Shown here in pieces: positions 41,658-58,352 of a DNA stretch of 64,000 nucleotides. The stretch comes from a bacterium SCSIO 12741. Lineage in GTDB: Bacteria; Bacteroidota; Bacteroidia; Flavobacteriales_G; Salibacteraceae. The position numbers and the translations under genes were made by a program. The stretch is from contig CP073749.1 of assembly GCA_024398055.1 (NCBI GenBank), positions 2,294,594 through 2,358,593 on the forward strand, given 5' to 3'. Position 1 is the first letter of the stretch, and each line of letters starts with the position of its first letter. The notes under the pieces were generated by a model. That model searched no databases. It saw only the letters and a list, made by a program, of their open reading frames with translations, and was not told where the DNA came from.

Positions 41658-43142
41658 TTATCGTCCTCCTAAACCAACAGGGCTTCCTACGCGGTCCATT
41701 GCACAGCGGAATCCAATCCAGGCTGTACGTTGAGTTTCTTCCAGGAAGCGACGAGTTCCAGGGTTCATGTAGTAAGCACGGTCTCTCCAGCTACCACCTT
41801 TATATACCCGGGTATCATCATTGATCAAGGACTTTTGACCATACTCATACATGTAAGTGGTCTCAGTCAACTTGTCATCTGAATTTTCAAAATCTTCCCA
41901 GTGGGTACGATCGATGTGCGATTCATACTCACCATCTTTAAAGTTAATGTTGTTTGAACGCTGGTAGTTACGACGATCCAGGTTCTCTTCTTCAGTAACC
42001 TCTACACGTTGTAGACGACCCAAGGAATCTTTCTCATCGATAAATCCATCGATATCTACTTTCAATTTGGTGTAAACATTACCTCTAAAAGGACGGAAAT
42101 CATCATTATCCTCAGAGTTCAACGGACGGTAAACATCCATTACCCACTCACTTACATTACCAGCCATGTTATATAGACCGTAGTCGTTAGGCCAGTAAGC
42201 GTAAACTGGGTTAGTGATATCAGCGTTATCGTTTAGTTTTCCAGCGATACCCATGTTATCACCTCGTCCACGCTTGAAGTTTGCCATCATAGATCCGATG
42301 TACTTCTCTTCAGGGTTACGAACAGCGTGTCCATTCCATGGCCACATTCTACGTTCGATTACACGTTCACCCAATGAGTTTCCAATCAAACCATAGGCGG
42401 CGTATTCCCATTCTGCTTCAGTTGGGAGACGATACTTAGGTAATAGGATACCATCTTCCATCTTTACACGACGGAAGCCTGTGCTGTTCGGGCTAAAGTC
42501 TGGAAGACCTTCAATTTTCTTTCCACTTTCATACTGTCCTACCAAATAGGCATCAGTGTTGAAGTTATCTTCACCTACCTGATCGGTGTAGTGCTCAAGA
42601 ATACCTTCACGAATCAAGATGTGCTCATTCACACGGTCTGTTCTCCACAGACAGTAGTCATTGGCTTGCAGCCAAGTAACACCAACTACCGGATAATCAC
42701 GGTAAGCAGGGTGACGTAGGTAATAATCAACGTAAGGTTCAGAGTAGGCCAGTTTACTTCTCCATACCAAGGTATCAGGAAGAGCTTTGGCATAAACTTC
42801 TGGGTAATCCAGACCGAACACGCGGTTAATCCAGTAAAGGTATTCCAACCAGTGTAGGTTAGTTACCTCAGTTTCATCCATGTAGAATGAAGAAACACTC
42901 ACCCTTCTCGGGTAATTGTTCCACTGGTGCATGAAGTCATCTTCTACTCGTCCCATGGTGAACGTACCCCCCTCGATCAAAACGAGGTTAGGCCCGGTTT
43001 CCTGCTCTTCGAAAGGCATTTTTTGGAAACCACCGTTCTTAGGATCGTTATAGTTCCAACCTGTGGCAGACGAAGATTCGTAACCGCAGGAGTACATCGC
43101 TAACAGCGATCCCAGTACTATGCTTAACTTAAGAATTTTCAT
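41658..43142 (-). CDS. gldJ: Gliding motility lipoprotein GldJ (SUMF1-like fold)
   Basis: 494 residues from the ATG at 43142 (MKILKLSIVLGSLLAMYSC); the lipobox places the lipidated Cys at 19. The mature part has the formylglycine-generating-enzyme (SUMF1) fold: LIEGGTFTMGRVEDDF, FYMDETEVTNLHWLEYL, GVTWLQANDYCLWRTDR, YRLPTEAEWEYAAYG, NMAGNVSEWVMDVY and GGSWRDRAYYMNPG. GldJ is an outer-membrane-associated lipoprotein needed for T9SS-driven gliding in Flavobacterium. Location next to porU and a PorP/SprF gene supports GldJ over GldK. It has its own -7 element. Confidence 0.88.
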   Translation of the reverse strand: MKILKLSIVLGSLLAMYSCGYESSSATGWNYNDPKNGGFQKMPFEEQETGPNLVLIEGGTFTMGRVEDDFMHQWNNYPRRVSVSSFYMDETEVTNLHWLEYLYWINRVFGLDYPEVYAKALPDTLVWRSKLAYSEPYVDYYLRHPAYRDYPVVGVTWLQANDYCLWRTDRVNEHILIREGILEHYTDQVGEDNFNTDAYLVGQYESGKKIEGLPDFSPNSTGFRRVKMEDGILLPKYRLPTEAEWEYAAYGLIGNSLGERVIERRMWPWNGHAVRNPEEKYIGSMMANFKRGRGDNMGIAGKLNDNADITNPVYAYWPNDYGLYNMAGNVSEWVMDVYRPLNSEDNDDFRPFRGNVYTKLKVDIDGFIDEKDSLGRLQRVEVTEEENLDRRNYQRSNNINFKDGEYESHIDRTHWEDFENSDDKLTETTYMYEYGQKSLINDDTRVYKGGSWRDRAYYMNPGTRRFLEETQRTAWIGFRCAMDRVGSPVGLGGR

Positions 43143-56881: not shown

Positions 56882-57133
56882 ATGTCAAAGTCAGAATTGT
56901 TTGATCGCGTTAATGACGCGCTGGGGGATTTGAAAAAGTTTGTTAGGGAAGATGGGGGTGATCTTGAATTGGTCGAAATTACCTCTGAAATGGTTGCCCG
57001 GGTGGAACTCAAAGGAGCCTGCCTGGATTGTTCCATGAACAACATGACCTTCCGTGCAGGAATTGAAGAAGCCATCCTAAAGGATGTACCCCAAATCGCC
57101 CGGGTAGAGAGCGTTACTCCACTCAATAATTAA
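56882..57133 (+). CDS. NifU C-terminal-domain (Nfu-type) Fe-S scaffold protein
   Basis: 83 residues, a bare NifU C-terminal domain. The cluster-binding CxxC is CLDC (Cys47, Cys50) after RVELKGA, as in Nfu and IscA-independent scaffolds. Two subunits would hold a bridging 4Fe-4S cluster for transfer to targets. With Mrp upstream it forms a small Fe-S maturation locus. No terminator follows; instead the 152-bp hairpin repeats begin about 24 bases downstream. Confidence 0.9.
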   Translation: MSKSELFDRVNDALGDLKKFVREDGGDLELVEITSEMVARVELKGACLDCSMNNMTFRAGIEEAILKDVPQIARVESVTPLNN

Positions 57134-57157
57134 GAGAACACATTTTCAACTCAAACT

Positions 57158-57309
57158 CTTTCGGATATGTTATCCGAAAGCGATAGCTGCGGATTTGAAA
57201 TCGGCAACCTGTTACATTCGGATTCCAAATCCGAATGAGGTTCTATGAAAGATGAAGGTTGAGGAGCCTACTGACTGTATCTTATTAGAATTACACGAAC
57301 TCACTGACT
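57158..57309. repeat. Hairpin repeat unit 1 (152 bp)
   Basis: Hairpin A at 57158-57180 has 10-bp arms (CTTTCGGATA / TATCCGAAAG) around TGT. Element B at 57189-57205 is GCGGATTTGAAATCGGC, degraded by one base. Element C at 57216-57236 is ATTCGGATTCCAAATCCGAAT. A spacer of about 70 bases follows. Confidence 0.88.
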
Positions 57310-57461
57310 CTTTCGGATATGTTATCCGAAAGCGATAGCCGCGGATTTGAAATCCGCAACCTCTTACATTCGGATTTCAAATCCGAATGAGGTTCTATGA
57401 AAGATGAAGGTTGAGGAGCCTACTGACTGTATCTTATTAGAATTACACGAATTCACGAACT
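57310..57461. repeat. Hairpin repeat unit 2 (152 bp)
   Basis: Same order, with all three palindromes perfect: A at 57310-57332, B at 57341-57357 (GCGGATTTGAAATCCGC) and C at 57368-57388 (ATTCGGATTTCAAATCCGAAT). It differs from unit 1 at only a few positions, including in the spacer. Confidence 0.88.
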
Positions 57462-57546
57462 CTTCCGGATATGTTATCCGAAAGCGATAGCCGCGGATTT
57501 GAAATCCGCAATCCCTTACATCCGGATTTCAAATCCGAATGAGGGT
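57462..57546. repeat. Hairpin repeat unit 3 (truncated, about 85 bp)
   Basis: Contains A at 57462-57484 (one arm has CTTCCGGATA, one mismatch), B at 57493-57509 (perfect) and C at 57520-57540 (first arm ATCCGG, one mismatch). It then loses similarity at GAGGG, with no spacer. Confidence 0.85.
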
Positions 57547-57576: not shown

Positions 57577-58326
57577 CTAAGCCGGCTTTCTAAAGATCTT
57601 AGATTTAGCCATTCCCAATTTATTCAGGAAGTACATCCAAGAGGTCCAAAGAACACCTAATCCATAAACCGAACTTCTCTTGAAGTTGATCGAAGAGGCC
57701 TCTTCAAAATACTTCGTTGGACAAGTCACTTCTCCAATTTCAAATCCGGCATAGAAAATCTGGGCCAACATCTGATTATCGAAGACGAAGTCATCTGAGT
57801 TCACATTGTAATCGATCGATTGCAACACCTCTTTCGAAAAAGCCCGGTATCCCGTGTGGTATTCCGAAAGCTTTTGATTCATCAACAAGTTTTGGGTCAA
57901 GGTGAGGAATCGGTTGGCGATGTACTTATAAATAGGCATTCCCCCTTTTAAAGCTCCTTTTCCTAAGATCCGGGAGGCAAGTACCACCGGGTAAAGATCG
58001 TTGGCAATAATGTGCGCAATAGAAGGAATAAGAAGGGGCGTGTACTGGTAATCCGGGTGCACCATGATCACGATGTCGGCACCGATTTCGAGAGCTTTGT
58101 TGTAGCAAGTCTTTTGATTACCGCCATAGCCCTTGTTCTGCTCGTGACGAATGACATGCTTAATACCAATCTTTCGAGCGATTTCTGAGGTGTTGTCAGG
58201 ACTGTGGTCATCTACGAGGATTACGTCGTCCACCAGGTCAAAGGGAATCTCCGCATAGGTTTTCTCTACCGTTTTTGCCGCATTGTAGGCCGGCATGACC
58301 ACTACCACTTTTTTTCCGTTAATCAT
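57577..58326 (-). CDS. Glycosyltransferase family 2 (polyprenyl-phosphate sugar synthase-like)
   Basis: 249 residues from the ATG at 58326 (MINGKKVVVVMPAYNAAK); a TTG at 58347 overlaps the promoter element and is rejected. GT2 features: VVMPAYNAAKTVEKTY, ILVDDHSPDNT (nucleotide-binding Asp) and NKGYGGNQK. The later HPDYQYTP stands where the DxD sugar-donor motif would be, and the tail RSSVYGLGVLWTSWMYFLN resembles dolichyl-phosphate mannose synthases. A membrane-linked polyprenyl-P-sugar role is probable. It ends at the repeat array and has its own promoter. Confidence 0.85.
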   Translation of the reverse strand: MINGKKVVVVMPAYNAAKTVEKTYAEIPFDLVDDVILVDDHSPDNTSEIARKIGIKHVIRHEQNKGYGGNQKTCYNKALEIGADIVIMVHPDYQYTPLLIPSIAHIIANDLYPVVLASRILGKGALKGGMPIYKYIANRFLTLTQNLLMNQKLSEYHTGYRAFSKEVLQSIDYNVNSDDFVFDNQMLAQIFYAGFEIGEVTCPTKYFEEASSINFKRSSVYGLGVLWTSWMYFLNKLGMAKSKIFRKPA

Positions 58327-58344
58327 CGGATCATGAATTTGCGG

Positions 58345-58352
58345 CAAATGTA
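58345..58352 (-). promoter_or_regulatory. -7 promoter element for the GT2 gene
   Basis: Minus-strand TACATTTG, ending 18 bases before the ATG at 58326. Confidence 0.58.

Follow-up and report, generated by a model that had tools for sequence, protein, structure and literature searches.

A REPIN-like tandem hairpin array in bacterium SCSIO 12741 and a RAYT gene bordered by copies of its repeat

Three near-identical units of hairpins lie between two convergent genes of bacterium SCSIO 12741 (Bacteroidota), and the question is what kind of element they represent and how they came to stand in tandem. The analysis started from a window of 64,000 nucleotides of contig CP073749.1; window base 1 is C1:2294594, and census positions were converted to window coordinates. 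An earlier note had described a three-unit array with a 152-bp period between convergent nfu and GT2 genes, and this was confirmed by the unit spacings and the Pfam matches of the neighbours. The units start at 57155, 57307 and 57459 (spacings 152 and 152 bp), and the period consists of an 84-bp element and a 68-bp spacer. The features are as follows.

56882..57133, + strand: NifU-like protein gene (nfu), upstream neighbour (PF01106, 66.8 bits); ends 22 bases before the first element
57156..57239: element copy 1 (REPIN-like); half A 57156-57194 (+), half C 57200-57239 (-), mismatched palindrome B at the junction (covariance-model census)
57240..57307: spacer 1, 68 bp, duplicated along with the element (unit comparison)
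57308..57391: element copy 2, all three palindromes perfect; half A 57308-57346 (+), half C 57352-57391 (-) (covariance-model census)
57310..57332: hairpin A of unit 2, CTTTCGGATATGTTATCCGAAAG; in the other units at 57158-57180 and, with one mismatch, at 57462-57484
57341..57357: hairpin B of unit 2, GCGGATTTGAAATCCGC; in the other units at 57493-57509 and, mismatched, at 57189-57205
57368..57388: hairpin C of unit 2, ATTCGGATTTCAAATCCGAAT; in the other units, with one change each, at 57216-57236 and 57520-57540
57392..57459: spacer 2, 68 bp, 61 of 64 compared bases the same as in spacer 1 (unit comparison)
57460..57543: element copy 3, spacer absent after it; half A 57460-57498 (+), half C 57504-57543 (-) (covariance-model census, unit comparison)
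57577..58347, - strand: family 2 glycosyltransferase gene (GT2), convergent downstream neighbour (PF00535, 69.1 bits)

When the unit is divided into 88 + 64 bases for comparison, units 1 and 2 share 84/88 positions of the element and 61/64 of the spacer, which bears out the earlier proposal that the array grew by tandem duplication of whole units. The element of unit 3 is identical to unit 2 at 83/88 and to unit 1 at 79/88 bases, and the DNA that follows it differs from the spacer (17/64 identical). Since unit 3 retains the element but not the spacer, the order of the array is R-s-R-s-R. These comparisons support an ordered REPIN cluster that was probably enlarged by tandem duplication of element plus spacer. 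A CRISPR array, already disfavoured in the earlier note, was rejected on the grounds that the spacers are near-identical and the repeats are dispersed over the whole genome.

The three palindromes occur in the same fixed order in every unit, as had been claimed, but unit 2 is the only one in which all of them are perfect. Palindrome B of unit 1 is mismatched (TGCGGATTTGAAATCGGC) and its C carries one change; unit 3 has one mismatch in A and one in C. The pattern TCGGAT(2-20)ATCCGA matches five times in the window, four times within the array (0.08 in shuffles), and CGGATTTNAAATCCG with up to two mismatches matches eight times, six of them within the array (0.29 in shuffles). The uncompensated mismatches in units 1 and 3, together with the 90-95% likeness of the units in the element, would fit an array that is itself functionless, the product of one or two insertions and passive tandem duplication that is now decaying. 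We give this view an even chance. It does not compete with the identity of the element as a REPIN, with which it is compatible; it describes the likely fate of such a cluster.

Unit 2 folds strongly both as single-stranded DNA (z = -7.9) and as RNA (z = -5.5). In the best predicted fold, units 1 and 2 each form three hairpins, and in unit 3 palindrome B pairs with C. The earlier note had suggested that the left arm of A could also pair with the right arm of C in a switch-like manner. This pairing is possible because A and C are inverted copies, and it corresponds to the long hairpin of a REPIN. In the array units it lies 4.1-4.6 kcal/mol above the best fold (4.3, 4.6 and 4.1 kcal/mol in units 1 to 3), and therefore a switch is not indicated. 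At three other places in the genome (L013b, L014 and L011a) the long hairpin is the best or nearly the best fold, and the same is true of L015 if a few more flanking bases are included.

The strong RNA fold and the position between two convergent genes could also indicate a role at the RNA level, in which the stacked hairpins would terminate the nfu and GT2 transcripts or shield their 3' ends and the copies would be maintained by selection for this; 7 of the 19 examined element places are located between convergent genes according to a crude gene caller. Only one terminator-like site was found (- strand, weak T tail) compared with 1.0 in shuffles, so that a terminator was rejected for want of any excess, and the earlier idea of a terminator amplifier was dropped. 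The idea of a structured RNA family fared no better: no Rfam model matched at the gathering score, and the sub-threshold matches were microRNA models. An RNA-level role leaves moreover the fixed polarity of the loop dinucleotide TG and the linkage to a RAYT gene, both described below, unexplained. We regard it as very unlikely, although an RNA-level effect could arise as a by-product of element insertion.

A search at the DNA level within the own genome (a single contig of 5,103,034 bp) yielded 32 matches, the query among them. Comparison of these loci revealed that A and C represent the same half-element in opposite orientations, and that the 84-bp element consists of the inverted half-elements A and C on either side of the central palindrome B (GCGGATT...AATCCGC). 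In its own orientation the half-element reads CTC-NNNCGGAT-loop-ATCCGNNN-GNNN-GAG-NN-GCGGAT, and most copies measure 39 nt. Using a covariance model built from 25 half-elements, 41 half-elements were detected in the 5.1-Mb genome at E <= 1e-4. Almost all of them (38/41) are arranged in 19 inverted pairs of the type '+ then -' and three halves are unpaired; the orientations of adjacent half-elements are +- in 19, -+ in 4 and -- in 1 case. The start-to-start distance within the pairs is 44-45 in nine (short B), 77-78 in six (B with a longer loop) and 68, 101, 103 and 160 in the remaining four. The copy number is low, with about 20 elements in this genome. None of 17 element loci lies inside a called gene and one half overlaps the start of a called ORF by 26 bases, with gene positions taken from a crude codon-usage caller that missed nfu and RAYT1.

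The first stem base is unlike between the halves in 18 of the 19 pairs (T against A in 16, C against T in 2), a value reached in 4 of 20000 shuffles; after collapsing the tandem and RAYT-side copies 14/15 pairs are still unlike (37/20000). With unlike halves in all but one element, whole pairs rather than single halves were apparently copied. In addition, several modules vary between the copies. A central hairpin with a 33-base longer loop (CTGAGCTTGCGACCTCATGAACGAAGTGAGTA-like) occurs in either orientation at seven loci (L211, L213, L214, L217, L221, L222 and L225), near C1:810124, 1655431, 2035817, 2423560, 3538645, 3900450 and 5072439. At 949040, 3328790 and 3900450 hairpin A has its loop replaced by another tip module (GCAACTGCCTCATGACCGTAGGGAATA-like), which is also present in a central position at 42586. 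Hairpin tips thus seem to be exchanged among elements.

Copies elsewhere, which the earlier note had proposed to look for, were found within the genome in the form of these 41 half-elements; similarity search at the DNA level detected the element in 0 of 59 related genomes. Insertion polymorphism could not be seen, because the 59 relatives lack the element in the DNA search.

The compensatory stem changes that the earlier note had asked for were detected. In the alignment of the 25 half-elements 96.4% of the stem cells pair (98% in the upper stem), 15 stem cells are changed on both sides compared with 4.5 after shuffling (0/500 shuffles), and the covariation score is 0.189 compared with 0.086 (0/500), although the shuffles overstate the significance, since the aligned copies are related to each other. 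Counted by stem pair, changes on both sides are not unusually frequent (3 compared with 2.1 in shuffles, 115/500), and the putative lower CTC/GAG helix shows no such change. In the predicted folds of several copies GAG pairs instead with CTC of the partner half, around B.

All 36 intact A and C tips contain TG in one polarity (TTTGNAA, TATGNTA or TATGTCA); all 25 halves used to build the model carry this loop TG, so that copies without it could escape the census. The loops of ten short B palindromes are variable and have no polarity (TTTGAAA, TTTTAAA, TTTCAAA, TTACAAA and TTTAAAA). The tetranucleotide at the side of the stem consists of G and three variable bases (NNNC if read on the opposite strand; a few copies have GTAG) and sits 3' in the half-element as modelled. 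The half-elements of this genome show no GTAG or GTGG foot 5' of the stem.

A Pfam search for Y1 transposases in the own genome revealed two genes, and both exceed the cut-off of 80 of the NCBIfam model REP_Tyr_transpos (RAYT1 96.4 bits, RAYT2 102.6 bits).

C1:949132-949662 (L011:1633-2163): RAYT1 (REP-associated tyrosine transposase), 176 aa, elements on both sides
C1:3965464-3966012 (L012:1965-2513), + strand: RAYT2, own palindrome GGTGCGCGTTTAAACGCGYACC upstream

The elements that flank RAYT1 are located at 949040, 949729/949773 and 949995/950039: a half-element about 30 bases past the 3' end of the gene and two full elements on its 5' side. The earlier suggestion of a REP-like protein-binding site is supported, and made more specific, by the inverted REP pairs and by a RAYT gene that carries the same repeat, with RAYT1 as the putative binding protein. 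A fragment of the 5' part of RAYT1 is present at C1:949769-949927 (L011 about 2270-2428; 51 residues, 76% identical, one stop). It overlaps the first 5'-side element and extends towards the second, as if the element and the start of the RAYT1 gene had been duplicated together.

RAYT1 contains the motifs NHLH and YIHQNP, and H59, H61, Y143, N147 and P148 are invariant across the 52 aligned rows. The AlphaFold2 model (pLDDT 91.6) has its best match among solved structures in 4er8, the E. coli TnpA_REP with REP (Z 16.0, rmsd 2.3, 140 residues), followed by IS608 (Z 11.6); a profile search with RAYT1 also placed 4er8 at the top (E 1.1e-8). The earlier statement that the repeats do not resemble a known IS end needs to be revised in so far as RAYTs share their fold with IS200/IS605 transposases. 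The palindrome GGTGCGCGTTTAAACGCGYACC beside RAYT2 occurs at about ten places in the genome and differs from the RAYT1-linked element, as expected for cognate pairs. At one site, palindromes of the RAYT2 type (C1:4735561-4735584 and 4735763-4735786) flank one element of the RAYT1 type.

With A and C as inverted repeats that end a short dispersed element, the family could also be taken for a MITE of another transposon of the DDE type, with a coincidental RAYT neighbour. The copies on both sides of RAYT1 and the repeat core beside RAYT homologues in six other genomes (see below) make such a coincidence unlikely, and we consider this explanation most improbable. A viral origin was rejected as well: the exact element pattern had 0 matches in viral_contigs, and a search for close relatives detected no relative of RAYT1 there.

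In all probability, the array is a REPIN-like cluster whose elements were spread by RAYT1 through recognition of the folded hairpins and which was tandemly duplicated after insertion. Each element comprises two inverted REP-like halves, hairpins with a putative CTC...GAG base and loop TG, arranged around B. RAYT1, as an HuH/Y1 single-strand DNA transposase, most likely recognises these hairpins in single-stranded DNA, for example in the lagging strand; according to the part of PMC6006769 consulted, HuH/Y1 enzymes have folded single-stranded DNA as their substrate, for which the lagging strand is a recognised source. By analogy, A and C would be bound via stem and loop and B would serve as a spacer hairpin. 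RAYT1 would then have cleaved the DNA and excised or copied whole elements into new intergenic sites; one copy would have been inserted downstream of nfu, and this element plus spacer then multiplied through tandem duplication.

To follow the element beyond its own genome we used 395 genomes. A scan with the covariance model, in which the best 16 candidates per genome were scored and 16 of the 41 own copies were recovered, yielded at least one match outside the own genome, a weak one (G271, E 2.6e-5). Of 394 other genomes of the phylum, 30 contain the exact core CGGATTTGNAATCCG, with 87 matches altogether, compared with 1 in all for a reversed control pattern. Homologues of RAYT1 were found in 98/394 other genomes of the phylum (99/395 with the own genome), and 15 genomes contain both core and homologue. 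In six of these (G114, G199, G263, G271, G381 and G388) core and RAYT homologue are no more than about 1 kb apart, and in seven they are not that close; G168 and G209 are in neither count, as their RAYT places are those among the matches listed. The six genomes with adjacent core belong to three other genera of the same class, their RAYTs are 42-49% identical, and the core is GGATTTGNAATCC. Neighbouring core copies 45-150 bp apart stand in the order '+ then -' in 14 of 18 cases (at loci picked for the core), with the same polarity as in the own genome.

At the level of whole genomes the association between core and RAYT is moderate, and it is not significant within the class. Genomes with at least four core copies have a RAYT in 7/9 cases compared with 91/385 (p = 0.001; within the class p = 0.058), and for any core copy p is 0.002 over 394 genomes and 0.16 within the class. 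We also analyzed the surroundings of 56 RAYT homologues chosen by protein similarity alone, with palindromes defined by arms of at least 7, a loop of 3-7 and a GC content of at least 30%. There are 95 palindromes in 44.3 kb closer than 400 bp and 35 in 94.7 kb beyond 600 bp, a 5.8-fold difference in density; the binomial p of 7e-22 treats palindromes as independent, which tandem copies are not. Palindromes were located within 400 bp at 33 of the 56 loci, at 19 of them on both sides, and 23 homologues have none by the same arm, loop and GC criteria. With arms of at least 5, the tip TTTGNAA occurs 11 times near RAYTs and twice far from them, and CTTTNAG 9 times near and 0 times far. As other tips are enriched too, this test shows an enrichment of hairpins more than of a unique tip.

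The distribution of palindrome classes over the RAYT tree is clustered (18 changes compared with 25.5 after shuffling, 0/200), also after removal of the picked loci and two near-copies (16 compared with 19.1, 1/200). The class GTC_GAC shows no clustering on this tree (5 changes, 500/500). The GGAT core occupies three separate places of the tree, so that retention, transfer or convergence are each possible. We tentatively propose, at somewhat less than even odds, that the RAYTs of this group read their REPs via core and tip (GGAT-WTGNN-ATCC, with TG kept and in fixed polarity) and not via a GTAG foot, and that the core may be recognisable between genera despite the RAYT identity given above. 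In that case a large group of RAYTs about which little is known would have its REP-RAYT recognition code in the loop, and many REPs in these genomes would belong to a single superfamily that can be traced, instead of being species-specific inventions. A REP core conserved across genera would also permit long-term tracking of REP-RAYT co-evolution, unlike species-specific REPs.

REPINs and REP-RAYT systems as a kind are already known, and what appears to be new is the anatomy of the element: no GTAG foot, a third central hairpin, the loop TG in A and C, and unlike halves in 18/19 pairs. In the portion of Bertels and Rainey consulted (PMC3116915), REPINs of Pseudomonas fluorescens SBW25 are dispersed inverted REP pairs, and ordered REPIN clusters are tandem repeats of near-identical REPINs with their flanks included. 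The elements described here share with them the inverted pairs, the compensatory changes, a RAYT beside a cluster and the ordered clusters. They differ by the third central palindrome (short or with a long loop), by about 20 elements instead of hundreds, and by the absent foot and the unlike halves. Short extragenic palindromes in inverted pairs also characterize the GTAG-tagged REPs and BIMEs of Enterobacteriaceae, Pseudomonas and Stenotrophomonas, as far as the excerpts of PMC3733652 and PMC8266576 go, but the present elements lack the GTAG or GTGG tetranucleotide 5' of the stem. The excerpts of PMC3733652 describe REP families with inverted pairs, some of them heterodimers, and with structured spacers between the partners. 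According to the parts of PMC8266576 consulted, TnpA_REP of E. coli processes REP in single-stranded form, particular loop bases are essential to group 3 enzymes, and IS608 and ISDra2 of the IS200/IS605 family use hairpin substrates of which a loop T is contacted; the loop TG may play a comparable part in recognition here. RAYT1 has the predicted HuH/Y1 transposase fold in common with IS200/IS605, whereas its gene lies outside the repeated element and the elements are far shorter than an IS.

The closest published counterpart is TnpAY1 subclass 2.6 (Quentin et al. 2018, PMC6006769). In the part of that article consulted, genes of subclass 2.6 or RAYT group 5 are mostly from Bacteroidetes, and next to them lie 'atypical secondary structures' that lack GT[AG]G, were recognized on manual inspection and recur elsewhere in the genome. 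The present locus is alike in its Bacteroidetes RAYT, in flanking structures without GT[AG]G and in dispersed copies. The motifs NHLH and YIHQNP fit NH[LIV]H and YIH[QN]NP given there for subclass 2.6, and the distance from H61 to Y143 is 82 residues, equal to the median HuH-Y distance of 82 in that subclass, although the counting in the paper may differ. RAYT1 is without the WQ of the subclass 2.6 consensus (W122 is followed by A), a region which the same source calls not conserved in subclass 2.6. By its sequence RAYT1 thus resembles subclass 2.6, and we refer to it as 2.6-like without assigning it as a member. The CTC-stem-GNNN-GAG halves, the loop TG, the central B, the inverted pairs and the cross-genus core go beyond the description in that part of the article, which gives no anatomy for the subclass 2.6 structures. 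A literature text search for the core listed three papers, none of them on REPs judging by title, and the available text of PMC2817692 contained no Bacteroidetes names. RAYT1-like RAYTs are widespread in the phylum, and in the published text seen their DNA partners in subclass 2.6 are described only as atypical structures. The locus supplies a concrete putative partner: half-element and RAYT are both defined, and a prediction can be made for the loop TG.

Several observations concern related structures in other genomes. A search of genome_contigs with the half-element pattern gave six matches, in Hymenobacter, Pedobacter, a Chitinophaga MAG, a Bacteroidales MAG, a Clostridia MAG and an Anaerolineaceae MAG; four of the six carry Bacteroidota names. 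The match in the Clostridia MAG appears to be coding DNA and not an element, and tblastn with RAYT1 detected no RAYT in the 7-8 kb covered. In Pedobacter sp. SYP-B3415 (L086:322-1670) there is a four-copy tandem array with a period of 352-356 bp, in which a third, different palindrome is followed by a B-like and then by a C-like one. A second, related family of the type CCCGATAGCGCGGATTTGCAATCCGTGCCCGCAA occurs as copies and inverted pairs in genomes of genus g41 (G084, G114, G199, G259, G263, G279, G373, G381, G400 and G432; loci L169-L206). This family adjoins RAYTs in G114, G199, G263 and G381, and the RAYT copy of G381 is broken by stop codons. The RAYT-side palindromes of G019 (83% complete) and G042 were found at 3 and 6 places, all of them within 1.5 kb of the RAYT and not dispersed; in G042 all six matches to one palindrome of locus L052 are confined to that locus. 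At L052 itself (G042 C20:418494-419922) the RAYT homologue is situated between tandem units of three palindromes with periods of 177 and 145.
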